Of a stretch of 40,532 nucleotides of DNA, positions 3,153 to 35,962 are shown in pieces; within the stretch, counting starts at the first letter, position 1, and the number at the start of each line of letters is the position of its first letter. Location of the stretch: positions 1-40,532 of IMG/VR virus record IMGVR_UViG_3300037104_000880; one strand, 5' to 3'. The stretch comes from a virus. The notes under the pieces were generated by a model. The model was given only the letters and a program-made list of their open reading frames with translations, had not been told where the DNA came from and made no database searches. The position numbers and the translations under genes were made by a program.

Positions 3153-3806
3153 ATTATTAAATTTATTATAATGTTTATCAGTTATCATGATAAAATTAAA
3201 GCCATTAGCGATAGTGGCTTTTTTCTTTGCTACAAGTTGGGTTTTAAAACGTTTCGCAAGATATGAATTTTTAATTTCCACTATAAGATTTAATGATGGA
3301 ATATAAAAATCGGGGAAATATACTTTACGTTTTTTATTAAACATATATTTTATTGTAGGAGCATTTTTCATATCTGAATAAATATGATAATAATTTTCTA
3401 AAAAATCTAATTCATATGATGCTCTATAATGTATACTAGTATTTTTGAATTGAATAGACCATTTAGCTGTTCTTTGTTGTTTATCAAATGTTTCCTTACG
3501 TTGTTGTACATTTTTAACACCATATTTTTCTATACATGTTTTTTCAATTTGTTGAATTCTAAATATATTTGCGCATTTTTCTGAACAAGTTCTCTTATAT
3601 CCTCGATCCCATCTTGGTTCATCGAATTTAAAATTTCCGCAAACAGGACAAAATTCTTCATTTTCTTCTTTTAAATATTTTTCATAATAATCATCTTTAT
3701 TATGTTCTAATCCTATATGACGTGATAAACTACATATTCTTAAATAAGTTCTGCCGCATTCTTCACATATAAATAATCCGTTTTGATTTTTACTTGGTAA
3801 TTTCAT
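3138..3806 (-). CDS. PD-(D/E)XK homing endonuclease-like protein
   Basis: 222 residues. The N-terminus has a C2H2-like finger (CEECG at 15-19 and two His near 30-35), and a second Cys cluster lies at about 53-78 (CPVCG, CSEKC). One KYGVKNVQQ repeat follows near residue 95. The C-terminal nuclease core has PD at about 165-166 (YFPDFYIP) and EIK at 177-179, which is the PD...ExK signature. It is a shorter paralogue of the protein at 7454-8494, sharing the finger, the IVEIKNSYLAKR block and the end of the fold. It sits opposite to its neighbours between virion genes, as a mobile free-standing endonuclease would. The start ATG at 3804-3806 follows an AT-rich leader. Confidence 0.7.
   Translation of the reverse strand: MKLPSKNQNGLFICEECGRTYLRICSLSRHIGLEHNKDDYYEKYLKEENEEFCPVCGNFKFDEPRWDRGYKRTCSEKCANIFRIQQIEKTCIEKYGVKNVQQRKETFDKQQRTAKWSIQFKNTSIHYRASYELDFLENYYHIYSDMKNAPTIKYMFNKKRKVYFPDFYIPSLNLIVEIKNSYLAKRFKTQLVAKKKATIANGFNFIMITDKHYNKFNNLFRL
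3198..3225 (+). terminator. Hairpin with T-run, inside the convergent gene
   Basis: The stem AAAGCCA (3198-3204) pairs with TGGCTTT (3215-3221) around a 10-base loop and runs into TTTTTTC. It would end the plus-strand transcript of the virion protein that stops at 3152. It lies wholly within the coding sequence of the minus-strand endonuclease. Confidence 0.5.
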
Positions 3807-3887: not shown

Positions 3888-4478
3888 ATGAGCATTCTCA
3901 ATGCCAAACTCAATCAATTTAGTATATGGTTGCCCCAAGATTTCTTTTATCCCGAGATAAGAGCGCGCTGGACGCCTGTTGTTAAACGTTTAAAATTACA
4001 ATATCAATCCTTAGAGGATTTCGTAAATGCTACAGTTCAAAGCGTTACATTTCCTGAAGTTATATTAGCTCCTGTTTCTCAACCACAAACAATGTTTTTA
4101 ATTAAATATCGCGGTGGTAAAGAACTTGAACCTATCCTTGATAAAAATTTAACTATCACATTTAAACTAACTGAAGGATTTATAACATATTGGATGATAT
4201 TTGATCAAATCGAATTATTCCAACAATATTCATTGCGTCAACCATTTTGGCCATCGATGTATGTAAGTTTCTTTGATCATCATGGTTTTGAATTATTGTC
4301 ATTTGAATTTCAAAAAATTGTTCCTACACTATTATCTCCATTTAATGTTAGTTATGCAACCGTAGCTGCCGATTTTAATGTATTTACTCTTAACGTTACA
4401 TACAATCGTTTTAAAATATCGAGAAGACTTACCAATGATGTTTACACTGCTGGTTTGCCTGATAACAATGAATTATGA
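3888..4478 (+). CDS. Tail-tube/baseplate-like structural protein (tentative)
   Basis: 196 residues, no Cys, rich in aromatic residues and beta-like segments. The layout (N-terminal helix, a FPEV/QPQ loop, LTITFKLTEGFITYW, then paired strands with a central FFDHHGFELLSF turn) recalls T4 gp19/gp54-type tail-tube-fold proteins and is close to the gp19 length of about 160-170. I cannot confirm this without a structure search. It opens a plus-strand cluster and overlaps the next gene by ATGA, which implies translational coupling to the tagged proteins downstream. The ATG at 3888 lies directly after TTATTATAT, a TATATA-type promoter sequence, so the message may have almost no leader. Confidence 0.45.
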   Translation: MSILNAKLNQFSIWLPQDFFYPEIRARWTPVVKRLKLQYQSLEDFVNATVQSVTFPEVILAPVSQPQTMFLIKYRGGKELEPILDKNLTITFKLTEGFITYWMIFDQIELFQQYSLRQPFWPSMYVSFFDHHGFELLSFEFQKIVPTLLSPFNVSYATVAADFNVFTLNVTYNRFKISRRLTNDVYTAGLPDNNEL

Positions 4479-4801
4479 GACCAACATTTATAAACGAAAA
4501 ATTTGAAGAAATTACTGATCCTATACAAGATATGGGTATAGGTGGATTTGTTCCATTTGAGGTATACAATAAGATGATGGGGACAGCGATTGAGAAATGG
4601 GAACAAGTTGTTCGAGATTCAATTGAAGGAAAAACACTCCAAGGCACATTTATGCTTACAGGTGATACAGAAACAATTGATAATTTGAAAATTTTTGTAA
4701 CAGAACTTCATTTTTACGCTAATGGACATATTGAAGTTGAACGACCCGATGGAAAACAGTTTGGATTAAAAGGAAAACATAAATATAAAATAATCGGATG
4801 A
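4475..4801 (+). CDS. Tagged small protein, cassette type B
   Basis: 108 residues. Residues 1-23 are a copy of the recurrent tag: MRPTFINE, then KF, then TDPIQDMGIG. The body starts GGF and has a Trp near residue 41 with a GKTLQGTF stretch. It resembles the bodies of the small tagged proteins at 12071-12394 and 34361-34804 (GG, helix with Trp, then GK.[VL].G). ATGA overlaps join it to the genes on both sides. No enzyme motif is visible. By analogy with T4 internal proteins, the tag may direct packaging and be cut after INE. The function is inferred from the tag only. Confidence 0.75.
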   Translation: MRPTFINEKFEEITDPIQDMGIGGFVPFEVYNKMMGTAIEKWEQVVRDSIEGKTLQGTFMLTGDTETIDNLKIFVTELHFYANGHIEVERPDGKQFGLKGKHKYKIIG

Positions 4802-5184
4802 AAGCACAATTCATACATGAAGCTATAGGTTTTACTCAAGATAGTGATCCTATAGAAGATATGGGAATTGGCAATTCATTTAAACACTTAAGAGTAGGCA
4901 ACATTTTAAGAGCTGATATAGATATTCGTATTACATCTAGAACCGGATTTGTAACAGGAACTAAAGGAAGAATAATTGCTTGGGCAAATCAATATCTTGT
5001 AGTACTTAAAACCGAAAGAACTCAACTTGATAAAAATAAAATAAAAGTGTGGTATCAAAATGCTGGCGATTTACATGGCGCAAAGTGTGTCGTAGATAAT
5101 ATTTCTAATTATACATTCGGATTATTCAATTCTATGACAGGAACTGTAAGACAATACGAAAAAAGATTTACAATAGTCCAATGA
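4798..5184 (+). CDS. Tagged small protein, cassette type A
   Basis: 128 residues. The tag is MKAQFIHE, then AIGF, then SDPIEDMGIG at 16-25. It has the two-residue IG expansion before F that is also seen as MG in the protein at 34361. The body begins LRVGNILRADI and ends YEKRFTIVQ, similar in layout to the cassettes ending KFEVIEKG (35531-35962) and RFEIIEKG (third cassette of 10680-12074). The body is basic and beta-rich with no enzyme motif. ATGA overlaps join it to both neighbours. Confidence 0.75.
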   Translation: MKAQFIHEAIGFTQDSDPIEDMGIGNSFKHLRVGNILRADIDIRITSRTGFVTGTKGRIIAWANQYLVVLKTERTQLDKNKIKVWYQNAGDLHGAKCVVDNISNYTFGLFNSMTGTVRQYEKRFTIVQ

Positions 5185-5672
5185 GAGCTCAATTTATATA
5201 TGAAAAGTTTGAAGACGAATCTGATCCTATCCATGATTTACACATTGGTGTTGAAAGTATACGTGAATTTGATACTGTTAAGGAAGCTGCTGTAATGTTT
5301 GTAGATAACATATGTCTTTTAACAAAAGGAAAAATCAGTTCGGCTCAACATCTACGCGAAACTATCAATAATATTGCTATGAATATGCATACTACAACTG
5401 ATGCAAGTCCATTAACTGAATGCAAAAGATATTTAGATGGAGTTAATTTTAATAAGCCCCCTTTAACAATACATGAACTTGGTGGAAGATTTGATAGAGT
5501 TACACAACGTGTTCAATTTTTGAAAGATTTTAAACAAGCCGTTACAGATTATACTAAAAGCAAATTTAAACCAAAAACAAGATTTGTAGTTGAAGCGTTT
5601 ACGCAAGAATCTGATCCAATAAAAGATATGGGAATTGGAATGTCAGCTCTTAGAAAACATTTTATAAAGTAA
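5181..5672 (+). CDS. Tagged protein with second tag at its C-terminus
   Basis: 163 residues. An N-terminal tag (MRAQFIYE, KF, SDPIHDLHIG) precedes a helical body. A second complete tag follows near the end (residues about 134-153: VVEAF then SDPIKDMGIG), and the protein stops 10 residues later. In the long tagged genes an internal tag is always followed by a new cassette of at least 100 residues. Here the cassette seems to be cut off by a TAA at 5670-5672, while the same frame continues open to 5945. The gene is therefore either a two-cassette gene split by a nonsense codon or one using programmed readthrough. Confidence 0.7.
   Translation: MRAQFIYEKFEDESDPIHDLHIGVESIREFDTVKEAAVMFVDNICLLTKGKISSAQHLRETINNIAMNMHTTTDASPLTECKRYLDGVNFNKPPLTIHELGGRFDRVTQRVQFLKDFKQAVTDYTKSKFKPKTRFVVEAFTQESDPIKDMGIGMSALRKHFIK
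5580..5639 (+). repeat. Internal tag copy
   Basis: Encodes RFVVEAF, TQE and SDPIKDMGIG, residues 134-153 of the protein at 5181-5672. The putative cleavage triplet is VVE. Confidence 0.8.
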
Positions 5673-6038: not shown

Positions 6039-6058
6039 AGCTTTCTAGAGCGAAAGCT
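6039..6058 (-). terminator. Short hairpin over the endonuclease stop codon
   Basis: AGCTTTC (6039-6045) pairs with GAAAGCT (6052-6058) around a 6-base loop, overlapping the TAG stop of the minus-strand endonuclease. There is no clear T-run, so termination is uncertain. Confidence 0.3.
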
Positions 6059-6752
6059 TGATTAAATTTCTTTTTAATTTGTTTTGATGTTGCTTTAAAT
6101 TTCCTGCGTCAAATGATTTTCCACAATGCTCACATGTGAATTTTTCTCTTTTAAGGGCAGCCTTCTGTGAATTCACTTTTGCTTCATCTGATTTTTTAAT
6201 TCCTGATATAGAAATACTTAAATTAGCTTTATGTATTTGTTGTTTTTTATCAGCTTCTTCTTTTCCATATTTTTCAATCCAAATTTTATAAGCGCATGTT
6301 CCAAACATTCCATTATTTTCACCTTTAGAATTTACTTTATTCTTTTCGCCTATTTTTTGCTTTGTTTTGTCTGGCAAATGTTTTCCGAAATTACAATGAT
6401 CCTTTCCGGCGTGCTTTCCTTTTCTATGTAATGAAATTCGTTGTTTTGTTTCTTCTGAAAAACAATCTCTTACATTGTGTCCACCTTTAGGACTTATGTT
6501 GTATCCGTTAGGAGATAAAGTATCAAATTTAACAATATATTTTTCCTGTGCATTGAATGCTTCTTCTTTTGATGGAAATTCTTCTATGATTTCTCTTTTG
6601 AAATTTTCTTTACCATATTCATGAATAGCACGTTGAATGTATATCCCACTACCCAAATAACTATCATTGATATTATAAGTAGAATGATCTCCAACATACT
6701 TTTTGTTTGTAAGTATGTTTGTTGTTACGTATACAAAATGAATTTTATTCAT
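6045..6752 (-). CDS. GIY-YIG homing endonuclease, family A
   Basis: 235 residues. The GIY-YIG core occupies about residues 5-95: FVYVTTN, KKYVGDHS, YLGSG, YGKENFKREI and an invariant NISPKGGHN end. An HRKGKHAG-type NUMOD3 region follows, then a SKGENNGMFG spacer, and the protein ends with a zinc-finger-like tail (CEHCGKSFDAGNLKQHQ). Its start overlaps the resolvase stop by 8 bases, so it sits at the 3' end of that gene. It is one of five close paralogues in this window. Confidence 0.85.
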   Translation of the reverse strand: MNKIHFVYVTTNILTNKKYVGDHSTYNINDSYLGSGIYIQRAIHEYGKENFKREIIEEFPSKEEAFNAQEKYIVKFDTLSPNGYNISPKGGHNVRDCFSEETKQRISLHRKGKHAGKDHCNFGKHLPDKTKQKIGEKNKVNSKGENNGMFGTCAYKIWIEKYGKEEADKKQQIHKANLSISISGIKKSDEAKVNSQKAALKREKFTCEHCGKSFDAGNLKQHQNKLKRNLIKLSL

Positions 6753-7453: not shown

Positions 7454-8494
7454 ATGAAATGTCTAGAATGTAATAAAGAATTTAAAGCTAAAAATGCATT
7501 ACATGCGCATATAAAAAGATATCACGAATGCGAACAATATTATGTTAAATTCTTTAAAAAAGAAGGAGAAGGTTTTTGCAAAATTTGCGGAAAACCCACG
7601 CTATTTTTTCATGTAGATAATGGTTATAGATCTTGTTGTTCAAAAGAGTGTTCTACAAAATATACATACGAACAAACAAAAAATGGAAATTTAAAAAAAT
7701 ATAACGTTGAAAATCCTTATCAACGTAAAGATATTAAGAAAAAAATTAAAGAAAATAATATTAAAAATTTTGGAGTTGTAATGCCTTTGCAAAATAAAAA
7801 CATAAAAGAAAAAGCATATAAAACCATGGAAAATAAATATGGAGCAAAAACTACATTGCAATCTCAAACTTTATCAGAAAAAGTTAAGAAAACCAAGAAA
7901 GAAAAATACGGTGATGAATATTATACAAATATAGAAAAAATTAAAGAAACGAATATTAAAAAATATGGGTGTGAAAATCCTTTAGGAAATAAAAAAATTA
8001 GAGAAAAAAGGAAACGAACAATGAAAAAATTATATGGCTCAGAACATGCTTTAAAAAACAAAATATTCCGTGAAAAAGCATTAATTAAAAACAAACAAAC
8101 TTTAAAAGAAAAATATAATGTTATCCATAATATGCACATTCCGGGAGTTTTTGAAAATTGGCAAAAATCCTGTTTCAGATTAAAACCGTATAAAAATACG
8201 GCATTATATTATCAAGCTTCTTATGAATTCGATTTTTTAGAAAAATATATTAATATATTTCCAGAAATTCAGCGAGGGCCATCATTAAAATATAAATATG
8301 AAGAAAAAGAAAAATTATATTTTCCAGATTTTTATATACCCTCATTAAATCTTATAGTTGAAATTAAGAATTCTTATCTTGCAAAACGAGATAAAGATAT
8401 TATATTAGCAAAACAAACTGTGGCTATATCAAATGGATATAACTTTATTTTAATTAAGGATAAAGATTACCGAGAATTTGAATGCATTATTTAA
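7454..8494 (+). CDS. PD-(D/E)XK homing endonuclease with KYGxxNPxQ repeats
   Basis: 346 residues. A C2H2-like finger lies at 3-24 (CLECNKEF...HAHIKRYH) and a Cys cluster at 42-66. About seven imperfect repeats of around 20-24 residues follow, built on K.KYG..NP.Q (near residues 82, 105, 128, 151, 170, 193 and 220), probably a DNA-reading array. The nuclease core has PD at 291-292 (YFPDFYIP) and EIK at 303-305. It is a longer paralogue of the gene at 3138-3806, which has only one repeat. It converges on the next gene with a 4-base overlap and is an isolated plus-strand gene amid minus-strand genes, as expected for a mobile endonuclease. Confidence 0.7.
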   Translation: MKCLECNKEFKAKNALHAHIKRYHECEQYYVKFFKKEGEGFCKICGKPTLFFHVDNGYRSCCSKECSTKYTYEQTKNGNLKKYNVENPYQRKDIKKKIKENNIKNFGVVMPLQNKNIKEKAYKTMENKYGAKTTLQSQTLSEKVKKTKKEKYGDEYYTNIEKIKETNIKKYGCENPLGNKKIREKRKRTMKKLYGSEHALKNKIFREKALIKNKQTLKEKYNVIHNMHIPGVFENWQKSCFRLKPYKNTALYYQASYEFDFLEKYINIFPEIQRGPSLKYKYEEKEKLYFPDFYIPSLNLIVEIKNSYLAKRDKDIILAKQTVAISNGYNFILIKDKDYREFECII

Positions 8495-8844: not shown

Positions 8845-10680
8845 CTATTCATCACCTAAAGCTTTTTTTATTTTTTTCAAGCCTTCAATTGTATCTTTAG
8901 AAACTCTTTGTTCTATTGCTTCTTTTTGAGACATTTTAAAATCAGCACCTTTTTTAACTAAATACAATCCCATTTCAATATTATAAGAACAAGCGGCATA
9001 ATGCAAAGGAGTTCCATTATGATAATTTATATCAGCTCCTAAGCCAATAGTATAATCTACAATATCATAACGATTATAAAAAGCTCCCCAACATAATAAT
9101 CTATCGATAGAATTGTCGTATTGAAATACATCTGCATTTCTATCATTATTTGCGTATTGTTTAAATTTTCTAACTTCTTTTTCCATGCCAATACCCATAT
9201 CTTTTACAGGGTCTGATTCTTCTTTAAAAGATTCATCTATTTTTTCAGGTTTATATATTTTAACTGCTGCTTCAAGATCACCGGCATATTTATTTACTCT
9301 ATAAGGAGATGTAATTCCATTAAATGATATGTTACAAATTTTTCCTACTTCAGTTTCGTAAAACATAAGTGTGCAAGGTTTGTCATTCCATTCAGCATCA
9401 ATTCGTTTTATCAGTTTTCCTTCATCAATATATCCTTCAATTTGTTCATATGATCCATCATTATTATATTGAGCTTTAAGAGTGTAATCATGTCCTGCTA
9501 AATAATAAACCTCTTCTAGTGCTGGTGAATCAAAAAGCTTTTCTAAAATTTCAGATAAATTATTTAATGCATTTAATTTCCATGGAAGACGATATTCCAT
9601 AAGTGCCTGCCTATAAACTTTATATCCAATACCCATATCCGTAATAGGATCACTTTCTTCTTCGAATCTTTCGTAAAGATTTTCTTTTAAGTGAAAGAAT
9701 TTTTTCAATTTCTTTTTCCTATTTTCTCTAATACTATCTTTCATATATTTCATGACATTTACAGCCTTACTTTCAATAGCTAGATTTATTAACGCTAGTG
9801 TGAATTTAACGCCATGTTCATGTAAGTATTTAAGTATTTCTATGTGATCATTAGCCACAGCAACTCGTAAAGGTTTATCTTGTGCCGCATGAATATCTGC
9901 TCCGGCTTCTACTAATATTTTAACAATTGGCAAATTATCATTGGCTACAGCGATTCTTAATCCTTTTTCGTGTCCTTCATTAGGATTCCCGTGAAAATCG
10001 AATTTGTATTTAATCATCAATTCAACCACACCTGTATGCCCATATTTGCATGCAGAATGAAACCAATTAATTACACGCTCGTTTTCGTTTATTTTTGCAC
10101 CTTTTTGCAAAAGATACTTAACAAAATCTTCTTTTTCATACAAAAGTGAATATCCTAAAATGATATTTATATTTTTAGTTGTGGCATCATCATCTCTTTC
10201 ATATTCTTCGATGTCATCTTTCATAAATTTTTTAATCTGTTCAGCAATTCCGATACCCATATCGTGAATAGCATCGGAATCTTCAGTGAACTTTTCATTT
10301 ACTTGATATGGAAGTATTTTAAAGTGTTCAAAGAAATCTTCGGGAAACAATGTCATATACTCACCACCAATATATTTAATATCAGCTTTGTGCATACGTT
10401 TAGGATCCTTATCGTACGTGCCAGTTTCTAATTCAATTTTAGTTTTCTTAATCGAAGACTTTTTAATTTGTACTGTTTTAATTACAACAAATTGTCCTGG
10501 GAGAATTGTGAATTTGTTGACATGTGCGCCTGGCCCAAAATTTATACGTGGAGATATTGCTTTTTTACATAAGAGTATTGTTCCTGATTTAAGTGAGCTT
10601 AACACTCCAATACCCATATCTTTTATAGGATCAGATTCTTCTGAAAATCTCTCGTTAATATATTGTGTAACTTTTCTCAT
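8845..10680 (-). CDS. Four-cassette tagged protein with ankyrin repeats
   Basis: 611 residues divided by four tags, with h-x-E sites at residues about 8-10 (INE), 127-129 (VNE), 335-337 (LYE) and 481-483 (IDE). Each is followed by F and S-D-[PA]-[IV]-x-D-M-G-I-G. Cassette 1 (26-125) is basic and beta-rich, type A (KSGTILL...FFEHFKILP). Cassette 2 (145-330) is ankyrin-like (YGHTGVVELMIKYKFDF, NDNLPIVKILVEAGADIHA, NDHIEILKYLHEHGV). Cassette 3 (353-480) is a mixed domain. Cassette 4 (499-611) is again ankyrin-like (NGTPLHYAACSYNIEMGLYLVKKGAD). The gene overlaps its upstream neighbour by one base (TAATG). Cleavage at every h-x-E would give four separate proteins. That processing is inferred. Confidence 0.8.
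   Translation of the reverse strand: MRKVTQYINERFSEESDPIKDMGIGVLSSLKSGTILLCKKAISPRINFGPGAHVNKFTILPGQFVVIKTVQIKKSSIKKTKIELETGTYDKDPKRMHKADIKYIGGEYMTLFPEDFFEHFKILPYQVNEKFTEDSDAIHDMGIGIAEQIKKFMKDDIEEYERDDDATTKNINIILGYSLLYEKEDFVKYLLQKGAKINENERVINWFHSACKYGHTGVVELMIKYKFDFHGNPNEGHEKGLRIAVANDNLPIVKILVEAGADIHAAQDKPLRVAVANDHIEILKYLHEHGVKFTLALINLAIESKAVNVMKYMKDSIRENRKKKLKKFFHLKENLYERFEEESDPITDMGIGYKVYRQALMEYRLPWKLNALNNLSEILEKLFDSPALEEVYYLAGHDYTLKAQYNNDGSYEQIEGYIDEGKLIKRIDAEWNDKPCTLMFYETEVGKICNISFNGITSPYRVNKYAGDLEAAVKIYKPEKIDESFKEESDPVKDMGIGMEKEVRKFKQYANNDRNADVFQYDNSIDRLLCWGAFYNRYDIVDYTIGLGADINYHNGTPLHYAACSYNIEMGLYLVKKGADFKMSQKEAIEQRVSKDTIEGLKKIKKALGDE
9187..9240 (-). repeat. Internal tag copy
   Basis: Encodes IDESF, KEE and SDPVKDMGIG (residues 481-498) before the C-terminal ankyrin cassette of the 611-residue protein. 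Confidence 0.8.
9625..9678 (-). repeat. Internal tag copy
   Basis: Encodes LYERF, EEE and SDPITDMGIG (residues 335-352), starting the third cassette of the 611-residue protein. Confidence 0.8.
10249..10305 (-). repeat. Internal tag copy
   Basis: Encodes QVNEKF, TED and SDAIHDMGIG (residues 126-144), starting the first ankyrin cassette of the 611-residue protein. Confidence 0.8.
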
Positions 10681-12074
10681 TAAAAGCCCTTTTCAATTAT
10701 TTCAAATCTTTTATTGAATTGATTCTCAGGAATACGTAGAGTTACTTTGTTTGCGTAACGATGTACTTCGGATTTAATGTTATCAAAATCCTCTTTTTCT
10801 TTTTGCACATATTCTAAATTAGTGTTATTGTAGACCATAACTTGAATGCTTTGTATTTTGTCCATCATTCGCATTACTCGAAGAACTAATAGAAACATCC
10901 CTGGCCTTAAGCTTGCACCTTTTCCGGCTCCTACAATTTTTCCAGAATGTTTTCCTATAGACATCCATTGTGTTGGCGCGAGTATGGCGCCAGGTGTTAA
11001 TGTAAGATATGAAACACCTATGCCCATATCGTGTATCGGATCTGATTCCGTGCTGAATTTTTCATATACTTTTTGTGCTTCCCACTCTAATCCATATTTT
11101 TCTTTAAGTATTTGTCTAATAATATGCTTAGCATAACTTGGTGCCGGCGTTCGGTTTTCATTATTGTTATTCCAATCTCGCCATTTTTTGTATGTATCAT
11201 GAAAAGCATTAGGAACAGATTCTTTTTCGCCCAATTTTTTAAGCATATCAATAAAAATAACACAAATGGTTGTTTCAAAATCAGGATTATCTACATTATA
11301 TTTTTTTATTTCTAATTCATTGTAAACATCTCCTAAAACTTCATGATTTAATCTCTTAAATTCTGCTTTAAAAAATTTGGCGCTTCCTATTCCCATATCT
11401 TTAATAGGATCAGAATGTTCAGTAAATTTTTCATGCATCTGCCCTACTAACATAGGCTTATTATTTCTGCCATCAATAACTGTGTAGTTTTTGCTTTTAA
11501 GATATTCAATTAATTCGTCTGTATCGTCAGGATCATAAACTGCTTCCCATCTATGTTGTTCCTTGTTAAAAAGATAGCCTTCATAAGCCAATACTTTTCT
11601 TGCGCCATAAGAACCTTTGCCCATAACACCAATCATTGGTGCATGATGATGCCATTGTTTGAAATAAACTTTAGTTCCTTGGCCATCTGGAATTTCTGGA
11701 TATTGTGCATTATCCCATTCCGGGATTGAAAACGATGCGTTTAATCCTGTGATATATTTTATTTTCCCTTTTAACTCTACTTTATATCCGGGTTTACTTT
11801 CTATTTCTTTAAATATTAAAGGAGCTTCATTAAGCCACCAATCTTGAGGAAATGAAAATCGAGACTTCCATCCATAATCACCGGGATTCCATTCAAATTC
11901 ATGTCTTTTTAAAATATCTCTTAAACCAAATGTATCACCTGTAAATAAAAGAACATAATTACTTCCACGACTATAAAAACGATAATACACTTTTTTGACA
12001 CCTATGCCCATATCATGAATGGCATCTGAATCATCAGTAAATCTTTCGTATAATATTTCTTTAACTAATTTCAC
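10680..12074 (-). CDS. Three-cassette tagged protein
   Basis: 464 residues with tags at 1-25 (MKLVKEILYE, RF, SDAIHDMGIG), 213-230 (MHEKF, SDPIKDMGIG) and 335-353 (KVYEKF, SDPIHDMGIG). Cassette 1 (26-212) is rich in Trp, Tyr and His (WNPGDYGWKSRF, FKQWHHHAPMIGVMGKGSYG). Cassette 2 (231-334) is a helical basic domain. Cassette 3 (354-464) is type A, starting LTPGAILAP and ending FNKRFEIIEKG, like the stand-alone protein at 35531-35962. No enzyme family was recognised in any cassette. ATGA and TAATG overlaps tie it to both neighbours in the minus-strand operon. Confidence 0.8.
   Translation of the reverse strand: MKLVKEILYERFTDDSDAIHDMGIGVKKVYYRFYSRGSNYVLLFTGDTFGLRDILKRHEFEWNPGDYGWKSRFSFPQDWWLNEAPLIFKEIESKPGYKVELKGKIKYITGLNASFSIPEWDNAQYPEIPDGQGTKVYFKQWHHHAPMIGVMGKGSYGARKVLAYEGYLFNKEQHRWEAVYDPDDTDELIEYLKSKNYTVIDGRNNKPMLVGQMHEKFTEHSDPIKDMGIGSAKFFKAEFKRLNHEVLGDVYNELEIKKYNVDNPDFETTICVIFIDMLKKLGEKESVPNAFHDTYKKWRDWNNNNENRTPAPSYAKHIIRQILKEKYGLEWEAQKVYEKFSTESDPIHDMGIGVSYLTLTPGAILAPTQWMSIGKHSGKIVGAGKGASLRPGMFLLVLRVMRMMDKIQSIQVMVYNNTNLEYVQKEKEDFDNIKSEVHRYANKVTLRIPENQFNKRFEIIEKGF
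11016..11072 (-). repeat. Internal tag copy
   Basis: Encodes KVYEKF, STE and SDPIHDMGIG (residues 335-353), starting the third cassette of the 464-residue protein. Confidence 0.8.
11385..11438 (-). repeat. Internal tag copy
   Basis: Encodes MHEKF, TEH and SDPIKDMGIG (residues 213-230), starting the second cassette of the 464-residue protein. Confidence 0.8.
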
Positions 12075-12394
12075 TCGTGTATGTATAATTTTTTCTGTAT
12101 GTCCAATTGGTGTTGAATCTTTTTCTTTGAATAAAAATATATTGCATTGGGCATTTGTCCTCGTTTAATTTCTTTTAATACCATCGTTGTTTCTTTTCCA
12201 GTATTTTTATCTGTGAATGTAACTTTCTTTCCTATTAAATCTAAATCTTTCAATCTTTTATACCATTCACGAACTCCGGCGTTAACAGTTTCATTCCACA
12301 TTTGTTGTAAATCAACACCACCTATATGCATATCTTTTATAGGATCAGTTGTATCATCAAATTTTTCATTTATGTTTTCGTTAACGATTTTCAT
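12071..12394 (-). CDS. Tagged small protein, cassette type B
   Basis: 107 residues. The tag is MKIVNENINE, KF, then TDPIKDMHIG (16-25). The body starts GGVDLQQMW, has a second Trp (VREWYKRL) and then GKKVTF, which matches the pattern of the proteins at 4475-4801 and 34361-34804. It overlaps the methyltransferase stop by 14 bases and the 464-residue gene by ATGA, so it is part of one minus-strand operon. It is lysine-rich, and the function is unknown apart from the tag. Confidence 0.75.
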   Translation of the reverse strand: MKIVNENINEKFDDTTDPIKDMHIGGVDLQQMWNETVNAGVREWYKRLKDLDLIGKKVTFTDKNTGKETTMVLKEIKRGQMPNAIYFYSKKKIQHQLDIQKKLYIHE

Positions 12395-13244
12395 TTTGAA
12401 TGATTATTTTAAGATGTGTAGGATATTTCAATTCAATATCCCAATCTCTTTTGATTTTATCTGCGATTGGTTGATAGATGTAATGATCCTCATATATAAC
12501 TTTCCAGCCCTGAGGAATTTTTGTTTTAATAGTTTCTAATGATACCGGGAAGTAATTTTCCAAAACTTCACGTTTCCAGTTTCGCTTATAATCATATTTT
12601 AAAAGCCAATGAAATAAATTCAAATAATTTTTATCGATAGGTCCCCAATGTTTTTCGAATGATTTTCTATAAAGATAATTCTTGTAATACTTTGAGGAAA
12701 ATAACGAATTAACTTTTTTAAGTTCTTCTGGCGTTGGTTTTAAATTCATATATTGTTTTGAAGGCACCATATCACGAATAGCTACCCATTTGAATTCAGG
12801 ATTAAACACCTGATTCTTCCAGAAATACGCTACTTCTTTTCCGCTTGTGTATGAATAAACTTCATGAATAACAGACATAAGTGTTAAAGCAACCTCATCG
12901 TATTCTCCGGCCATATACACCGCTTTTTTCCAATTATCTGTTATTTCTAAAGAAGGGAATTTTGATTTTACTAAAGAGATCATTTTGTCATCAATGTCAT
13001 ATCCTATACATTGTTTGATGTTGGAATATCGTTTTCGAATTTGATCAAGTATGTAACCATCTGCACACCCAAAATCGATTACACAGTCCGGTTTTATTTT
13101 TGAAATGAATCCTGTTTTATCTTCAACACCCTTTGTCATTTGTGTTGTGTATTGAGATATATCTGCGATTGCTGCAAGTCCTACAGAATCTTCATTTAAT
13201 ACTGTTGGGTTAAATTCATACAATGATTCAGCAATCAATTTCAT
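12381..13244 (-). CDS. Class I SAM-dependent methyltransferase-like protein
   Basis: 287 residues. Motif I is CVIDFGCADGYILDQI (about 54-69) and the acidic end of strand 2 is CIGYDIDDKM (about 79-88), the usual SAM-binding layout. No clear NPPY or DPPY motif was seen, so the target could be protein, RNA or a small molecule. The N-terminus MKLIAESLYE then F closely resembles the leader half of the tag (h-x-E at residue 10), although the SDPIKDMGIG half is missing. It may therefore be packaged and cleaved like the tagged proteins. It is the first gene of the minus-strand operon, behind a TGAATAAATAA element. Confidence 0.7.
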   Translation of the reverse strand: MKLIAESLYEFNPTVLNEDSVGLAAIADISQYTTQMTKGVEDKTGFISKIKPDCVIDFGCADGYILDQIRKRYSNIKQCIGYDIDDKMISLVKSKFPSLEITDNWKKAVYMAGEYDEVALTLMSVIHEVYSYTSGKEVAYFWKNQVFNPEFKWVAIRDMVPSKQYMNLKPTPEELKKVNSLFSSKYYKNYLYRKSFEKHWGPIDKNYLNLFHWLLKYDYKRNWKREVLENYFPVSLETIKTKIPQGWKVIYEDHYIYQPIADKIKRDWDIELKYPTHLKIIIQNENR

Positions 13245-13258
13245 TTTGCTATTTTGTT

Positions 13259-13269
13259 TTATTTATTCA
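13259..13269 (-). promoter_or_regulatory. TGAATAAATAA promoter-like element
   Basis: The minus strand reads TGAATAAATAA, 14 bases before the methyltransferase ATG. The spacing is nearly that of the resolvase promoter-like site at 7424-7434. It probably drives the whole minus-strand operon down to 8491. Confidence 0.45.
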
Positions 13270-13318
13270 TATTAAAATATTGTTAAAATCCTATATAACT
13301 TCATCGACGGGATTGTTT

Positions 13319-13330
13319 CGGGATAAATAC
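13319..13330 (+). promoter_or_regulatory. ATAAATA late-promoter-like element
   Basis: CGGGATAAATAC lies 12 bases before the ATG at 13343 and resembles the T4 late promoter core TATAAATA. Confidence 0.35.
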
Positions 13331-13342
13331 AATAAAACAGAT

Positions 13343-13678
13343 ATGAAAAATATTAATAATGACGTATTTTTAAACAAAATCATGCAACGAATTAAGAACG
13401 GTGATTTTGATGCGTACCTTACAATACCTTTTATGACTCGAGATTTACTCGTTACTACAATTAAAGGAAGGTTAGAGAAAAAGATAGCTACAGGCGGAAC
13501 TCCTATACTCAGTGATGCTGATTTAAAGGATTGTATAGCAGAAGTAAAAGAGACAGCAGTTTTTATAGTTGCTGTTTACGTAAAACTAGGATTCATGGTT
13601 AGAACAGAAGAAGGTTATGAATTAAGTGAAAGAGGTAAAAAAGTTATAAAAGTAGCAAATGATAGAAAAGAAATTTAA
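13343..13678 (+). CDS. Small winged-helix-like protein
   Basis: 111 residues from the ATG at 13343. The frame is open further upstream, but those codons run through the AT-rich promoter region and read as non-coding. The product is helical with a C-terminal LGFMVRTEEGYELSERGKKVIK segment that looks like the strand-turn-strand wing and last helix of a winged-helix domain. This suggests DNA binding or regulation, but the fold call is tentative. A family A GIY-YIG gene overlaps its 3' end by 20 bases, so its end appears to be an endonuclease insertion point. Confidence 0.6.
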   Translation: MKNINNDVFLNKIMQRIKNGDFDAYLTIPFMTRDLLVTTIKGRLEKKIATGGTPILSDADLKDCIAEVKETAVFIVAVYVKLGFMVRTEEGYELSERGKKVIKVANDRKEI

Positions 13679-14243
13679 TTTTGTTTATATTACTACAAAC
13701 ACTATTAACGGAAAACAGTATATTGGTGATCATTCTTGCGATGTTTTGGAAAAAGATAATTATCTTGGAAGTGGAAAAGCAGCATTAATTCCGGCTATCA
13801 AAAAATACGGAAAAGAAAATTTTAAAAAGGAAATTTTAGAATTTTTTCCTACAAAACAAGAAGCATTTAATGCACAAGAAAAATACATTAATAAACATCA
13901 AACATTAGCTCCATGCGGATATAATATAAGTCCAAAGGGAGGCTCACAATGTTCAGGAGGAATTTCTGAAGAAACGAAACGAAATATGAGTAAATCAGCC
14001 AGAAATAGACCACCTGTTTCTGAAGAATCGAAAGAAAAAAATCGTAAAGCGCATTTAGGAAATAAAAATGCTTCCGGAAAACGTAAAAAGGAATTTTGTG
14101 AAAAAATGAAAGTAGTAAATACTGGAAATAAAAATGCAAAAGGAAAAAGAACCCCCGAACAAATAGAAAATATAAGATCAGGAACATTAATTGCTATGAA
14201 TCGTTTAAAATTAAACAAAAGTAGTTCACAACCAATTTTTTAA
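13659..14243 (+). CDS. GIY-YIG homing endonuclease, family A
   Basis: 194 residues. Core at about 4-90: FVYITTN, KQYIGDHSC, YLGSGKAAL, YGKENFKKEILEFFP, AQEKYI and NISPKGGS. NUMOD3-like repeats follow (SEETKRNMSKSA, SEESKEKNRKAHLGNKNASGK, GNKNAKGKRTPEQ). It lacks the zinc-finger tail of its paralogues. It starts inside the last codons of the preceding gene, and a strong terminator begins at its own stop codon. Confidence 0.85.
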   Translation: MIEKKFNFVYITTNTINGKQYIGDHSCDVLEKDNYLGSGKAALIPAIKKYGKENFKKEILEFFPTKQEAFNAQEKYINKHQTLAPCGYNISPKGGSQCSGGISEETKRNMSKSARNRPPVSEESKEKNRKAHLGNKNASGKRKKEFCEKMKVVNTGNKNAKGKRTPEQIENIRSGTLIAMNRLKLNKSSSQPIF

Positions 14244-15017: not shown

Positions 15018-15461
15018 ATGAAGCTAGTTAGAGAATATTTGTATGAGACGTTTTCAGATGTATCTGATCCTGTTCATGATTTGGGAATTGGATATGATAA
15101 TCTTTCTATAAAGCAAAAATATAAAATACCTTTAAAAGATAGACCAAATCCTGTAATAGATAAAGAACACAATATTTATTCAAGAGGCTATGAACTTTGG
15201 AAACTTCTTGAATATGTTTTGAAAGCAGGCGATGCAGGAAAAAGATATAGTGAATTAGTTAATTATGATAGTAATTTAAAGGGTTTAACATATAAACGTA
15301 GAACTTTTAGTAGAGGAGTTTATTATGCAATTAAACGTCATACAGATAAATATTATCGCAAAACTTTTCATAAATATCTATTAGATAGTAGCGGCTATAG
15401 TTTTTATAATCGTTATAAGAAACATTTTGATGATGGCAAAGATTTTTCGAAAAATAAATAA
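15018..15461 (+). CDS. Tagged small basic protein
   Basis: 147 residues. The tag is MKLVREYLYE, TF, then SDPVHDLGIG (16-25). The body is very rich in Lys, Arg and Tyr (KRYSEL, YKRRTFSRGVYYAIKRH, YYRKTFHKYLL) and would be strongly basic, as expected for a protein condensed with DNA inside a head. No fold was recognised. It is the first gene after a terminator/promoter unit and is followed 5 bases later by the HxGH nucleotidyltransferase gene. Confidence 0.75.
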   Translation: MKLVREYLYETFSDVSDPVHDLGIGYDNLSIKQKYKIPLKDRPNPVIDKEHNIYSRGYELWKLLEYVLKAGDAGKRYSELVNYDSNLKGLTYKRRTFSRGVYYAIKRHTDKYYRKTFHKYLLDSSGYSFYNRYKKHFDDGKDFSKNK

Positions 15462-15466: not shown

Positions 15467-16405
15467 ATGATATCACCACTTTCCCCCGCATATTATAAAT
15501 TTACAAACTTTAAAACTTGGTTAAATGAAAATGCCCAAGATGGTGTAACGGTTTTACTCCCAGGCGGATTTAAACCTATGCACATTGGACATGTCGATTT
15601 AGTTAAGAGATATGCTGAGCATGCAGATGTTAAAGAAGTTATAGTTCTCATCGGTCCCGGAGTTAGAAACGGAATAACCCAAAAAGAATCACTTGAAATC
15701 GCAAATTTACTTTTAAAAGATTTTCAGAATGTTTCTGTTGAGTCAGTAATTTACCCATCACCTGTTTTAACGATATACAAATACATTGAAACCGCAGAAC
15801 CTGGGACTTATGCAATGGCCGCAGTTCGAAAAGGAAAAGATGATGAAGATTACAAAAGAGTATTGAAGTTTGTAGAAAATTTCAGTCCAGGCGGAAAATA
15901 TTATGAAGGAAAACCAAAGGGTGTAAATATCATAGAATTAGCAGTAAATACAGAACCGATTTATTATCATGGTAGAACTGATGAAAACGATGAAAAACCC
16001 ATTTCAGCTTCTATTTTAAGAAGAGATATTTTGAATGATGATTATAACAATTTCAGAACCAATTATCCGGGATATGATGAAGATACAATCAAAGCAATCT
16101 GGGACACTACACAAATGGTTATAACTGAAACAGATATTCTTGAATACGACGATGTAATCAATGAAGCAAAAAAAGATGATGGATTCTGCAAATGTGATGA
16201 GAATCATTGTTTTTGGGATTACATGCATCAAGGATTTGGAAAAGCTGCATCGTGTGCTAATGGTTGTTGGATGGAAAAAGATAAAAAATATAACTGGAAA
16301 GAATTTTATAGCAGAACTAATCCTGAAGAATACAAACAATTTTGTGAAGATGTGGCATCTGGAGCCAAACATTATCCAGCATTTAAAGGAACTAAAAAGA
16401 AATGA
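15467..16405 (+). CDS. HxGH nucleotidyltransferase (cytidylyl/NMNAT-like)
   Basis: 312 residues. The nucleotidyltransferase motif GGFKPMHIGHVDLVKRY (33-49) contains HIGH, and a later SASILRRD matches the ISxxxxR signature, so the N-terminal 200 residues are a complete Rossmann-like adenylyl/cytidylyltransferase domain. The C-terminal tail is Cys-rich (CKCDENHC, CANGCW) and may bind zinc. The N-terminus KFTNFKTWLNE resembles that of the next gene (FITFKQWLNE), with an h-x-E site at 19-21. Both may be packaged and trimmed. The substrate is unknown. It is coupled to the ligase-like gene by ATGA. Confidence 0.7.
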   Translation: MISPLSPAYYKFTNFKTWLNENAQDGVTVLLPGGFKPMHIGHVDLVKRYAEHADVKEVIVLIGPGVRNGITQKESLEIANLLLKDFQNVSVESVIYPSPVLTIYKYIETAEPGTYAMAAVRKGKDDEDYKRVLKFVENFSPGGKYYEGKPKGVNIIELAVNTEPIYYHGRTDENDEKPISASILRRDILNDDYNNFRTNYPGYDEDTIKAIWDTTQMVITETDILEYDDVINEAKKDDGFCKCDENHCFWDYMHQGFGKAASCANGCWMEKDKKYNWKEFYSRTNPEEYKQFCEDVASGAKHYPAFKGTKKK

Positions 16406-17652
16406 GCAAATTTATAACATTCAAACAATGGTTAAATGAAGCCATTACACCTACCGTTAATAAACACATGACGCACGCGGAAGACCTCGTTATCCTTGGC
16501 GGTAAAGAAGGACTTGATTGGGTCATCGATATGTTCAAACAATTACACGAAAAACTTAAAAGTGATACAGAAAAAAGCCAGATTAAACTTTCCGTTAAAT
16601 TTGATGGCGCTCCTTCAGTATTTGTTTGGTCAAAATTTACAGGTTTGGAAGGTCCCGGTCTTGCCATTAAAGCTTTATTCGCTAAAGAACGTAAAGTAAT
16701 GTCTACTGATGAACAGATTGATCATTACTATGGCGAACAAAAAGATCTTGGTTTTAAACTTAAAACGATGTTGAAATACATTCCTTCTTTAGGAATTCCT
16801 GAAAATGAAATTTGGCAAGGTGATTTTTTATTCGATAAAACTACGTTAGGAAAAGATAGTGAGCATTATTCATTTCATCCTAACACAATAGTTTACAAAG
16901 TTGATACAGATTCAGATTTAGGAGAAAAAATATCAAAAGCCGATATTGGAGTAGTTTGGCATACAAGATACACAGGAGAATCCGTTACAGATATTTCTGC
17001 TAAATACAATACAAAAACAGATGAGTTAAAAGAAAATCCTAAAGTATTCATGACTGACCCTTATATTCCTTCATTAGCTGGAATTGTCACTTTAACAGAG
17101 GAAGAAAATAATGCCTTTGATACGTTAATTGAAAAATTAGAAGCGTCTGCGCGAAACTTTGGTCAATCTCAAGAATATAAAATAATATTGGGCAATACAG
17201 AATTCACAACTTTATTTACTACTTTTCAAAATTCTTTAATCAGACAAAATGTTCATGTTAGTAAAGTTGAAGATTTTTTAACTAAGTTTGCAGAATTCAT
17301 AAATAATAGATTTGAAAAAGATATTGAAGCAAAGAAAACTCCAAAATCAAAAGAAGCTTTAGCAGAAAAACAACAAAAAATGATTGCTATTACTGAAGCT
17401 GAAGAAGTTAAATCAATTACAGCCCTTATAATTGAAATTACAAGTCTAAAAGATATGTTTATCAAAAAGTTGAATAACATAAACAAATTTGAAACATTTC
17501 TTGAAACTCGAAGTGGAAGATACATTTCTACAGGTGATGAAGGATTTGCAGTTTCAGACATGCACGGAAATATTGTTAAATTAGTTGATAGATACGAATT
17601 TAGTTACGCGAATTTTTCGCCAAATATTAAGAAAGGGTGGGCGCCGAAATAA
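16402..17652 (+). CDS. Ligase-like nucleotidyltransferase (KxDG)
   Basis: 416 residues. VKFDGAPSVFV (65-75) fits the KxDG motif of covalent nucleotidyltransferases (ligases and capping enzymes), and DIGVVWHTRYTG further on may be the motif IV region. The C-terminal half is a long charged helical region. The N-terminus MSKFITFKQWLNEA has an LNE site at 11-13 and resembles T4-type capsid-targeting leaders. The pairing with an HxGH enzyme is repeated as a fusion at 31369-33150, so the two activities probably work together, perhaps on RNA ends or NAD. That is inference. Confidence 0.6.
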   Translation: MSKFITFKQWLNEAITPTVNKHMTHAEDLVILGGKEGLDWVIDMFKQLHEKLKSDTEKSQIKLSVKFDGAPSVFVWSKFTGLEGPGLAIKALFAKERKVMSTDEQIDHYYGEQKDLGFKLKTMLKYIPSLGIPENEIWQGDFLFDKTTLGKDSEHYSFHPNTIVYKVDTDSDLGEKISKADIGVVWHTRYTGESVTDISAKYNTKTDELKENPKVFMTDPYIPSLAGIVTLTEEENNAFDTLIEKLEASARNFGQSQEYKIILGNTEFTTLFTTFQNSLIRQNVHVSKVEDFLTKFAEFINNRFEKDIEAKKTPKSKEALAEKQQKMIAITEAEEVKSITALIIEITSLKDMFIKKLNNINKFETFLETRSGRYISTGDEGFAVSDMHGNIVKLVDRYEFSYANFSPNIKKGWAPK

Positions 17653-20311: not shown

Positions 20312-20318
20312 CTTTAAA

Positions 20319-33153: not shown

Positions 33154-33879
33154 ATGAAAACTTATAAACATTACTACATATATCAAATTAAAAATTTATT
33201 AAATGGAAGATGTTATATAGGGTGGCATGCAACAAATAAAGCGTATGATAGTTATTTTGGAAGCGGGCTTTTGCTTAAACGAGATATTAAAAAATATGGT
33301 CAGAATAATTTTGTTAAAGGAATTCTAGAATTTTGTAAAGAAGATGAAGTTTTTGAAAAAGAAATACATTGGATAGATAAATTAAAAACCCATATTAGTG
33401 AAGGCGGATATAATTTAACACGCGGTGGAGATGGTGGTGATACGTTTTCGTATAAAACGCCTGAAGAAAAACAAGCTACAAATACAAAGAGAGGCTTATC
33501 TTTGAGTGGAAAAAATAACGGGATGTATGCAAAAACGGTATATGATGTATGGCTTGAAAAACACGGAAAGGAAGAAGCAGACAAAAAATATGCAGATTAT
33601 AAAAATAATCATGCGCATACTGGAACAATCAATGGAATGCACGGCAGAAGTATATATGATGTTTGGGTAGAAAAGTACGGAAAAGAAGAAGCTGATAAAA
33701 AATACATTGAATATAAAAAGAAATTATCAGATAAAAGAAAACAAATAAAACAAACACAAGAAACAAAAGACAAAATAGGAAAAGCAAATGCAATTTCATT
33801 ATTAGGAAAAAAACAATCACAAGAAACTATTGATAAAAGAGTTAAAAAACTTAAAGGGCAAAAACGTAATAAACACTAA
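33154..33879 (+). CDS. GIY-YIG homing endonuclease, family B
   Basis: 241 residues. The core reads HYYIYQIKNLLN, CYIGWHATNKAYD, YFGSGLLLKRDIKKYG, HWIDKLKTHISEGGY and NLTRGGDGG. NUMOD3-like repeats follow, then two copies of a YDVW[LV]EK[HY]GKEEADKKY segment, which is also present in the family A protein at 6045 (WIEKYGKEEADKK). This shows domain exchange between the families. Its stop overlaps the first gene of the tagged cluster (TAATG). Confidence 0.85.
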   Translation: MKTYKHYYIYQIKNLLNGRCYIGWHATNKAYDSYFGSGLLLKRDIKKYGQNNFVKGILEFCKEDEVFEKEIHWIDKLKTHISEGGYNLTRGGDGGDTFSYKTPEEKQATNTKRGLSLSGKNNGMYAKTVYDVWLEKHGKEEADKKYADYKNNHAHTGTINGMHGRSIYDVWVEKYGKEEADKKYIEYKKKLSDKRKQIKQTQETKDKIGKANAISLLGKKQSQETIDKRVKKLKGQKRNKH

Positions 33880-34364
33880 TGAAACTTCTAAGAGAACATA
33901 TAAACGAGAAATTTGAAGAACAAAGCGATCCTATTAAAGATATGAATATTGGATTGAAGAATAATTTGAAAAAATACGAACTTGATAACATGCGAGATTT
34001 TATACGTATTTCTGAAGATGATCTTTACAAAATATATGCGTTTTTAGGACATGACGATAATGATATTTATTGGCTCGGTGATACAGCATTAGAGAATGGT
34101 CATGTAGAGTATTTCAATCGTATTTTTGATTTTTGTGAAAAAAATCTTATTGAAAAGAAGCCCAAATATAATCTTGGTTTTATGTTAAGAAAAATGGGAA
34201 AATTAGCTAATAAAAGCGTGATCACTACATATAACACAACTAAAGGCAAATTTCTTACAATAGAATACCTTGATGCTGGAAAAACGCAATATACGTATTT
34301 CGGAGATTTAGACGCAGCTTTTAATGCACAAGTAGTTCAAAATAAATTATTTGATGATATATGA
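33879..34364 (+). CDS. Tagged protein with ankyrin-like segment
   Basis: 161 residues. The tag is MKLLREHINE, KF, then SDPIKDMNIG (16-25). The body has an ankyrin-like segment (LGDTALENGHVEYFNRIFDF) and then a beta segment (FLTIEYLDAGKTQYTYFGDLDAAF). The latter resembles part of cassette 3 of the 611-residue protein (CNISFNGITSPYRVNKYAGDLEAA), pointing to shuffling of cassette parts. It overlaps its neighbours by TAATG and ATGA. Confidence 0.72.
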   Translation: MKLLREHINEKFEEQSDPIKDMNIGLKNNLKKYELDNMRDFIRISEDDLYKIYAFLGHDDNDIYWLGDTALENGHVEYFNRIFDFCEKNLIEKKPKYNLGFMLRKMGKLANKSVITTYNTTKGKFLTIEYLDAGKTQYTYFGDLDAAFNAQVVQNKLFDDI

Positions 34365-34804
34365 AAATTGTAAGAGAACATATAAATGAAACGATGGGTT
34401 TTACAGAAGATTCTGATCCTATAAAAGATTTGGGCATTGGAGGTATTGACGTATACAAAGAATGGCATGATCTTAATGACGAATATGACAACGGCAACAT
34501 TAAAGATTTAGCCAAAGAATGGAGAAAAGTGTTAGAAGAAATTTTTGTTGGCAAGCATGTTACAGGAAATTTTCATCAAGGAAACTCAGATAGTTACGGA
34601 GGATTACAACGTCTTACAACTCGAAAACCTGTTGATAGAGTCGAAGATATAGATAGCGAAGGAGATGGAGCTTTTGCGTTAGTAACAAATGATCCAGGCG
34701 TTTATAAATATGCAACAAGTGATGGCAATTATATTAATAAAGATGAAGTTTGGTATTTTGCATTGTTAGATGAAAACAAAGGAATAAAAATATTCGTAAG
34801 ATAA
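34361..34804 (+). CDS. Tagged small protein, cassette type B
   Basis: 147 residues. The tag is MKIVREHINE, TMGF, then SDPIKDLGIG (18-27), with the two-residue expansion before F also seen at 4798. The body GGIDVYKEWHDL...LAKEWRKVLEEIFVGKHVTGNF has the same pattern as the small proteins at 4475 and 12071, followed by an extra acidic/aromatic region. There is no enzyme motif. It is coupled to both neighbours. Confidence 0.72.
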   Translation: MKIVREHINETMGFTEDSDPIKDLGIGGIDVYKEWHDLNDEYDNGNIKDLAKEWRKVLEEIFVGKHVTGNFHQGNSDSYGGLQRLTTRKPVDRVEDIDSEGDGAFALVTNDPGVYKYATSDGNYINKDEVWYFALLDENKGIKIFVR

Positions 34805-35529
34805 TGAAATTAGTAAGAAGCGATATAAACGAGAAATTCTCAGAAGAATCCGACACTATTAAAGATTTAGGAATCGGAAAGCAAAGAATCATTAATGACT
34901 TTACACGATTAGGCATTGAAGAAAAAGAAGTAGAGTTTAAAGATGATGGCACGTTTTTTTTGAAACGTGGTTTTCAAAGATTAGGCACACAATTCTTTGA
35001 AATTCAAATGAAATATTTTCCAGAAGAGAAGAAACAATTAATGCAGGATATTATTGAGGGGAAAAAAGATAATTACAAAATAGTTAAAGAGGCTGTAAAA
35101 GCCAAAATATCATTTGAAGATATTATTTTCATAGTAGAATACTTGGTGCCTAATGAAGTTTCACGAAAAGAAATGATGGCACAAATCGATCTTTACTCGA
35201 AATTTATGCATAGAACTCCTGATCAAAAGAAATTTGATAAAGAAAATAATATCTACATTTTCATAGGTTACGAAGAAAAATTACCTGTTGTAGTCAATGG
35301 AAAGAAATATTACGAAGATAAATTTGAGGCCGAAAAACTTGTAAAAATCAACAAGTATGATCTTGTAGATTTACATAGTGTAGATATGATGAAACAAAGA
35401 GCAATGTTTGGCCGGCATGGAGTTGTATACATGGTTACACTTCCAAAATTTATGATGGATGAAAAGTATTACGAAGGAATTCCCGAAGAATGGAGAGATA
35501 TCATAGATAAATATAAAAAGAAAATTTGA
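34804..35529 (+). CDS. Tagged protein, longest single-cassette member
   Basis: 241 residues. The tag is MKLVRSDINE, KF, then SDTIKDLGIG (16-25). The body is lysine- and glutamate-rich and helical, with an aromatic C-terminal domain (MFGRHGVVYMVTLPKFMMDEKYYEGIPEEWRDI). No fold was recognised, and no close body paralogue was seen in the window. TAATG overlap to the previous gene. Confidence 0.72.
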   Translation: MKLVRSDINEKFSEESDTIKDLGIGKQRIINDFTRLGIEEKEVEFKDDGTFFLKRGFQRLGTQFFEIQMKYFPEEKKQLMQDIIEGKKDNYKIVKEAVKAKISFEDIIFIVEYLVPNEVSRKEMMAQIDLYSKFMHRTPDQKKFDKENNIYIFIGYEEKLPVVVNGKKYYEDKFEAEKLVKINKYDLVDLHSVDMMKQRAMFGRHGVVYMVTLPKFMMDEKYYEGIPEEWRDIIDKYKKKI

Positions 35530-35530: not shown

Positions 35531-35962
35531 ATGAAATTAGTTAGAGAACATATTAATGAAAAGTTTTCAGAAGAAATGTCTGATCCTATAAATGACATGG
35601 GTATTGGAGGGTATTCATTTGATTTACTTAAACCTGGTGCTGTTCTTAAAGCCAAAACGAAAACATCTATTAAAAAAGATAATTCAGGATATTTGACAAA
35701 TTGGGGAAAAGGCTTTAATGTTGATGTGGACAGAAAAATTATTGTTATAAGTGTTCGTAATTATATTCTTAAAGGCTACAAAGAATTTACAATTTTTATA
35801 CCAAGCGAATCACAAATTATAGATGATGAATCTATTAAACATGCTCGAGAACAACTTAAGACAAATCCCAATTTCTCAAGTTGGGGAAATAGAACACGTA
35901 TGTTACTTACAAAAGTTCAATTCAACTCGAAATTTGAAGTTATTGAAAAGGGTTGGGAATAG
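35531..35962 (+). CDS. Tagged small protein, cassette type A
   Basis: 143 residues. The tag is MKLVREHINE, KF, then SDPINDMGIG (17-26). The body starts LKPGAVLKAKTKTS and ends VQFNSKFEVIEKGWE, aligning by eye with cassette 3 of the 464-residue protein (LTPGAILAP... QFNKRFEIIEKG). It is therefore a stand-alone version of a polyprotein cassette. It is the last gene of the tagged cluster, ending with TAG before the next promoter-like element. Confidence 0.75.
   Translation: MKLVREHINEKFSEEMSDPINDMGIGGYSFDLLKPGAVLKAKTKTSIKKDNSGYLTNWGKGFNVDVDRKIIVISVRNYILKGYKEFTIFIPSESQIIDDESIKHAREQLKTNPNFSSWGNRTRMLLTKVQFNSKFEVIEKGWE

Follow-up and report, generated by a model that had tools for sequence, protein, structure and literature searches.

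Can a phage make several packaged proteins as a single chain and leave it to a protease to separate them? The question is raised by two adjoining genes in a 40,532-nucleotide stretch of viral DNA (IMG/VR record IMGVR_UViG_3300037104_000880, positions 1 to 40,532; hereafter the window), which comes from an uncultured giant T4-like phage. The genes encode proteins of 464 and 611 residues, in which a preliminary description had reported a complete N-terminal tag recurring within the chain, each time at the start of a new domain. We find the open reading frames (ORFs) as reported, with three tags in the shorter protein (residues 1-25, 206-230 and 329-353) and four in the longer (residues 1-25, 120-144, 328-352 and 474-498), all scoring well above background.

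Our conclusion is that the two ORFs probably encode polyproteins composed of internal head proteins of the T4 type. The N-terminal tag, a ten-residue capsid-targeting leader followed by a 15-residue linker, would direct the entire chain to the prohead core. As the head matures, the gp21-type S77 prohead protease of the phage would then cut after the Glu of each h-x-E triplet, giving three small proteins from the 464-residue ORF and four from the 611-residue ORF. The released proteins would begin (K/R/S)FxEESDPIxDMGIG and remain inside the head until ejected along with the DNA, and their cargo, consisting of ankyrin repeats and domains of unknown kind, would probably work against the host at an early stage, like T4 IPI. 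Cutting, packaging, ejection and the effector role are steps that we infer.

The predicted pieces, from cut site to cut site and with the tag counted in, are of about 120-210 residues. All five internal tags carry the triplet (MHE, VYE, VNE, LYE and IDE), as had been claimed. The two ORFs have one base in common, at ta-ATG, and the 464-residue ORF overlaps the next tagged gene (12071-12394) at gtga. Because of these overlaps, a single polycistronic message appears likelier than two; the earlier proposal of seven proteins from two messages keeps its seven proteins, provided each site is cut, but not its two messages.

A two-part tag resembling the T4 capsid-targeting sequence

The consensus tag is 25 residues long, [hxE]-KF-x-E-E-SDPIxDMGIG, and in leaders reads MK(L/M)V(R/A)E(H/Y)INE/KFxEESDPIxDMGIG (here and below, a slash marks the known or predicted cut). 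Compared without gaps, the leader MKLVREHINE is identical at 5 of 10 positions to MKTYQEFIAE, the capsid-targeting sequence (CTS) of T4 IPII and IPIII as given in the T4 record, a score reached by 0.06% of shuffles. The Ile at position 8 and the Glu at position 10 are among the residues in common. In the T4 CTS, positions 4 and 7 serve targeting, while positions 8 and 10 serve processing (PMC9026906). An Asp at position 10 of the T4 IPIII CTS prevents processing and leaves targeting intact (PMC9026906).

Leaders and internal copies differ in a manner that matches this mutagenesis. Position 7 is aromatic or His in 72% of leaders but in only 11% of internal tags (p 1e-28), while position 8 is aliphatic in 99% of internal tags and the Glu is likewise retained; position 4 does not differ between the two groups. 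It is important to note that the Glu count in this comparison holds by construction, and that the independent counts are those given below for first and internal copies. Since position 8 and the Glu are kept while the targeting position 7 is lost, the internal copies look like processing sites, not targeting signals. The 15 residues past the Glu are common to leaders and internal copies, and conservation ends sharply at GIG.

Tagged genes in the window and in related phages

Using a 22-position profile built from the tags of related phages, we obtained 17 matches in the window, spread over 11 ORFs and scoring 31-50 bits; the best remaining score was 5 bits, and the reversed window sequence gave no match above 5 bits. 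The tag therefore extends beyond the 464- and 611-residue genes. One of the other tagged ORFs (5181-5672) is a third multi-tag gene, in which a TAA lies 10 residues past the second tag and the frame reopens to 5945; the in-frame stop may be a nonsense mutation, a sequence error or a site of recoding.

Searching IMG/VR with a DNA pattern for DPIxDMGIG recovered 99 stretches, to which two pattern variants added more. This was far more productive than whole-protein search, which returned nothing for the 464-residue protein and one locus for the 611-residue protein. With duplicates removed, the related phages hold 251 tagged ORFs with 367 tags, and 67 of these ORFs carry 2-8 tags. An h-x-E triplet stands at every module boundary, preceding 125 of 125 internal copies, and also precedes 241 of 242 first copies; the sole leader without it is a chance match in a bacterial contig. 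In one 405-kb relative (G001, 400 kb examined) we count 88 tags, which fall in 64 ORFs; of these ORFs, 15 are multi-tag. Tagged multi-cassette genes are thus a clade-wide strategy. The four bacterial sequences matching the pattern probably do so by chance; the one from Bacteroidetes lies within an outer-membrane-type protein. No tag was found among INPHARED, PLSDB or PHROGs matches, where short-query tblastn would miss diverged tags.

Where tags share an amino acid, their third codon positions agree at a rate of 0.655, against 0.658 predicted by codon usage. Because synonymous sites are saturated in this way, recent DNA duplication of the tags is ruled out, and the tag is old and maintained by selection at the protein level.

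Prohead protease and capsid protein in relatives

An S77 (gp21-type) protease was detected in 4 of 22 records and a Gp23-type capsid protein in 4 of 22, G001 included. In G001 a single 781-residue ORF (306658-309003, L110) joins the protease to a long stretch that resembles a coiled coil; in T4, genes 21 and 22 are separate. The G001 ORF contains 11 hNE triplets where 1.05 are expected (Poisson 1.6e-8; 0 of 5000 shuffles), and its hNE-rich part would be a scaffold destined to be shredded. The G001 capsid protein carries HALNE/AAMGG, a T4-like LNE/A site that resembles the T4 gp23 cut site FLTE/AEIGG. G001, G002 and G019 also encode, separately from the main capsid gene, a second, shorter Gp23-like protein (about 310-330 residues; L118, L120).

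Cassettes occur alone, fused and reordered

The match noted in the preliminary description between cassette 3 of the 464-residue protein and the solo gene at 35531-35962 is confirmed, at 31% identity over 143 residues (E 6e-14 with the tag, E 2e-7 without it). Across the relatives, 216 pairs of a solo protein and a polyprotein cassette match at E<1e-8 with tags removed; modules found in chains are thus independent proteins elsewhere. Split, fused and reordered cassettes, for which a comparison of relatives had been suggested, are all seen (the 216 pairs, the order of cassettes in L046, and the gene pair described next), and the cassettes are exchangeable. A search for neighbouring tagged cassettes that are separate genes in one genome but a fusion elsewhere yielded no more than diverged examples and examples at contig edges.

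A clean split/fused case is provided by a cytidylyltransferase-like gene and a DUF6267 gene. They are separate in the window, L041 and L098, with DUF6267 starting FKQWLNE/AITP or alike; in L166 they form a single ORF with the junction ESLNE/ADNS, and in L009 a single ORF in which a tagged cassette stands between them, followed by ALDE/SITS. An h-x-E triplet is thus present at the same junction whether the pair is split or fused. The DUF6267 protein of the cultured phage DLP6 begins KFTQFLAE/S. The partners of the cytidylyltransferase-like gene vary (15467-17652; L009, L042, L166, L034), being DUF6267 or a second nucleotidyltransferase-like protein, and some of the fusions in relatives have h-x-E at the junction.

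The proteins contain two or more distinct domains. In a Pfam scan of 12 multi-tag ORFs, ankyrin repeats alone exceeded the cut-off, and the domains typical of polyvalent proteins (MPTase, ART, GNAT, ParB-like, PBECR etc.) were not found; PADLOC matches were to ankyrin only. A 457-residue protein of one relative (L102:1518-2888) has an N-terminal homolog of cassette 1 of the 464-residue ORF and, ahead of its final part, a bare ESLINE/P site with no DMGIG.

Weighing the explanations

The interpretation advanced in the preliminary description is supported in part, by the modular architecture, the kept h-x-E, the reshuffled cassettes, and the gp21-type protease and LNE/A capsid site of relatives. 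Structure models also bear on it. AlphaFold2 gave confident domains at about residues 31-100 and 361-464 of the 464-residue protein, and at about 30-128 and 160-330 of the 611-residue protein, with less confidence at 525-580. Instead of being buried in one continuous fold, the outcome that had been named as contrary, the tags are predicted to be flexible linkers, and in both proteins the predicted local distance difference test score at the tags and near them is for the most part under 50. A PDB fold search with the 464-residue model gave no match below E 0.001.

Several points weigh against polyprotein processing. The low score at the tags is weak evidence for linkers, since the AlphaFold alignments contain only 6-16 sequences, and cassette 2 of the 464-residue and cassette 3 of the 611-residue protein were modelled poorly. 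The window, a fragment, is without a protease or capsid gene. At the tags P1' is Lys in most cases, against Ala at the capsid site. Untagged G001 genes have 18 CTS-like hNE starts where 13.6 are expected, an enrichment that is not significant. Conservation of the 15 retained residues goes beyond what a bare cut site requires, and these residues lie outside the T4 model; conservation ending at GIG would also fit another cut or a binding role. Furthermore, the phage is uncultured, and we infer both cutting and packaging.

Three other explanations deserve consideration. An unlikely one is that each chain remains an uncut multidomain polyvalent protein, its tag being a motif that docks onto scaffold, portal or some partner in the host and is repeated to raise avidity, with h-x-E merely part of that motif. 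The strongest conservation does sit past the Glu, on the product, and multidomain injected proteins of the polyvalent kind are known, some of them packaged unprocessed (PMC5512222). Such a chain would, however, leave it unexplained that h-x-E is retained in all internal copies although targeting position 7 is lost, that DUF6267 fusion junctions have h-x-E without the DMGIG part, and that the same cassettes also exist as single genes.

The abrupt stop of conservation at GIG, in leaders and internal copies alike, would instead suit a tag that is a propeptide in its entirety, which S77 or another peptidase would remove by a cut, or a second cut, after GIG, leaving the cargo free of tag residues. 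We know of no prohead protease that cuts after a GIG-type site. T4 gp21 and SPN3US gp245 both cut after Glu in a short motif (PMC9026906, PMC10052503), and the capsid site in relatives is LNE/A (the protease search covered S77 alone), making us view a cut after GIG as quite improbable. The least probable of the three, in our judgement, is that neighbouring tagged genes were accidentally fused by stop-codon loss, leaving internal tags as passive relics or internal starts. Fusion would be easy, given that tagged genes are arranged in tandem, the stop of one overlapping the start of the next. Yet the internal copies are without a start Met at its place while their core is held as strongly as in leaders, the saturated synonymous sites speak for old tags under protein-level selection, the multi-tag ORFs number 67, and the decay expected of relics is not seen.

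Known systems and implications

The T4 proteins IPI, IPII, IPIII and Alt resemble the proteins described here in their ten-residue leader layout (MKxxxExIxE), their h-x-E cut motif, and the presence of several small proteins per phage with variable cargo behind a conserved tag. Each has one CTS, cut at its end; here there are 15 additional conserved residues, the tag is repeated in the chain with up to 8 cassettes per ORF, and packaging is presumed. Polyvalent proteins of phages and conjugative elements likewise have several domains per chain and are probably delivered with DNA, and their processing into separate units by an in-chain peptidase domain (MPTase) has been proposed (PMC5512222). 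In contrast, no peptidase domain was found in our Pfam-scanned ORFs, and the repetition of the tag suggests a trans-acting protease.

In SPN3US and phiKZ, giant phages with S77-type prohead proteases, many head proteins are cut after a short Glu-ending motif (PMC10052503, PMC7411985). The cuts identified in SPN3US remove N-terminal propeptides, bar the protease's own C-terminal propeptide (PMC10052503), and we found no description there of a single chain that yields more than one mature protein. Among deposited capsid proteins, the nearest belongs to the Lak megaphages of Prevotella (48% identity); the tag pattern has no match in the Lak-A2 genome. A search of an open-access library, which omits most subscription journals, turned up no phage protein described as carrying more than one targeting tag.

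For the clade as a whole, we lean towards a plug-in cargo system of uncultured giant T4-like phages. Each genome would encode dozens of small head proteins sharing the two-part tag of targeting leader and retained 15 residues, many as polyproteins of up to 7-8 modules cut in trans by the prohead protease inside the head, and the retained part would have another function, for example in protease docking, head retention or ejection. If so, a DNA phage loads many injected proteins by a polyprotein strategy like that of RNA viruses, carried out by its head-maturation protease. In uncultured giant phages, the tag would then make it possible to recognise, without any data beyond the sequence, candidates for proteins that are carried in the head and injected; a single 405-kb genome has at least 64 tagged ORFs, and, ankyrin repeats excepted, the scanned cassettes contain no known domain. 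It would also be a cut-and-carry signal testable in T4.

The locus and other genes of the window

Relatives of the gene at 13223-13678, sharing 61-67% identity with it, occur in G001, L009, L042, L098 and L166. In all except L098 the relative adjoins opposite-strand tagged genes, as in the window, and these are solo in some genomes and multi-tag in others. The locus beside this gene is likely a fixed cargo-exchange site. A conserved neighbour with changing cargo, as at 8845-13678 of the window, is seen in L034, L032, L042, L009 and L166.

Table 1. Positions of the tagged genes, their tags and cassettes, and other genes of the window
Feature	Position	Strand	Remark
464-residue ORF	10680-12074	minus	GTG start; 3 tagged cassettes; profile matches at all three tags
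Leader tag, MKLVKEILYE/RFTDDSDAIHDMGIG	12000..12074	minus	resembles T4 IPIII CTS
Internal tag 2, KPMLVGQMHE/KFTEHSDPIKDMGIG	11385..11459	minus	tag profile
Internal tag 3, LEWEAQKVYE/KFSTESDPIHDMGIG	11016..11090	minus	tag profile
Cassette 1, post-leader	11430..12044	minus	homologous cassette follows ankyrin cassette in L046
Cassette 2	11061..11429	minus	no relative found in cassette comparison
Cassette 3	10683..11060	minus	relatives solo at 35531-35962 and in L029; last of two in L074
611-residue ORF	8845-10680	minus	ATG start; 4 tagged cassettes; one-base overlap with 464-residue ORF
Leader tag, MRKVTQYINE/RFSEESDPIKDMGIG	10606..10680	minus	
Internal tag 2, FKILPYQVNE/KFTEDSDAIHDMGIG	10249..10323	minus	tag profile
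Internal tag 3, FFHLKENLYE/RFEEESDPITDMGIG	9625..9699	minus	tag profile
Internal tag 4, KIYKPEKIDE/SFKEESDPVKDMGIG	9187..9261	minus	tag profile
Cassette 1, post-leader cut	10294..10650	minus	relatives are cassettes 1 of 2, 2 of 4, 6 of 7 and 1 of 3 of other ORFs
Cassette 2, ankyrin repeats	9670..10293	minus	
Cassette 3	9232..9669	minus	weak relative: solo gene in L043
Cassette 4, ankyrin-like	8848..9231	minus	
Solo tagged gene	12071..12394	minus	upstream, same run of overlapping genes; L166 homolog beside same neighbour
Solo tagged gene	4475..4801	plus	tag profile
Solo tagged gene	4798..5184	plus	tag profile
Two-tag gene	5181..5672	plus	second cassette stopped by in-frame TAA (5670-5672)
Solo tagged gene	15018..15461	plus	tag profile
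Solo tagged gene	33879..34364	plus	tag profile
Solo tagged gene	34361..34804	plus	tag profile; homolog is cassette 3 of 3 in L043
Solo tagged gene	34804..35529	plus	tag profile
Solo tagged gene	35531..35962	plus	homolog of cassette 3, 464-residue ORF
Cytidylyltransferase-like gene	15467..16405	plus	CTS-like start FKTWLNE/N; fused to next gene in L009 and L166
DUF6267 gene	16402..17652	plus	CTS-like start FKQWLNE/A; h-x-E at equivalent place in fused relatives
Homing-endonuclease-like genes	3138-3806, 6045-6752, 7454-8494, 13659-14243, 17637-18296, 18628-19161		by eye
Homing-endonuclease-like genes (further)	20289-20933, 22003-22737, 25172-25753, 30048-30701, 33154-33879		by eye

Homing-endonuclease-like genes (GIY-YIG, HNH and similar), of which we count about 11 by eye, are unusually dense in the window. 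At 28677-29876, on the strand opposite to its neighbours, lies a gene for a secreted-looking low-complexity protein rich in Gly, Tyr, Asn and Ser.

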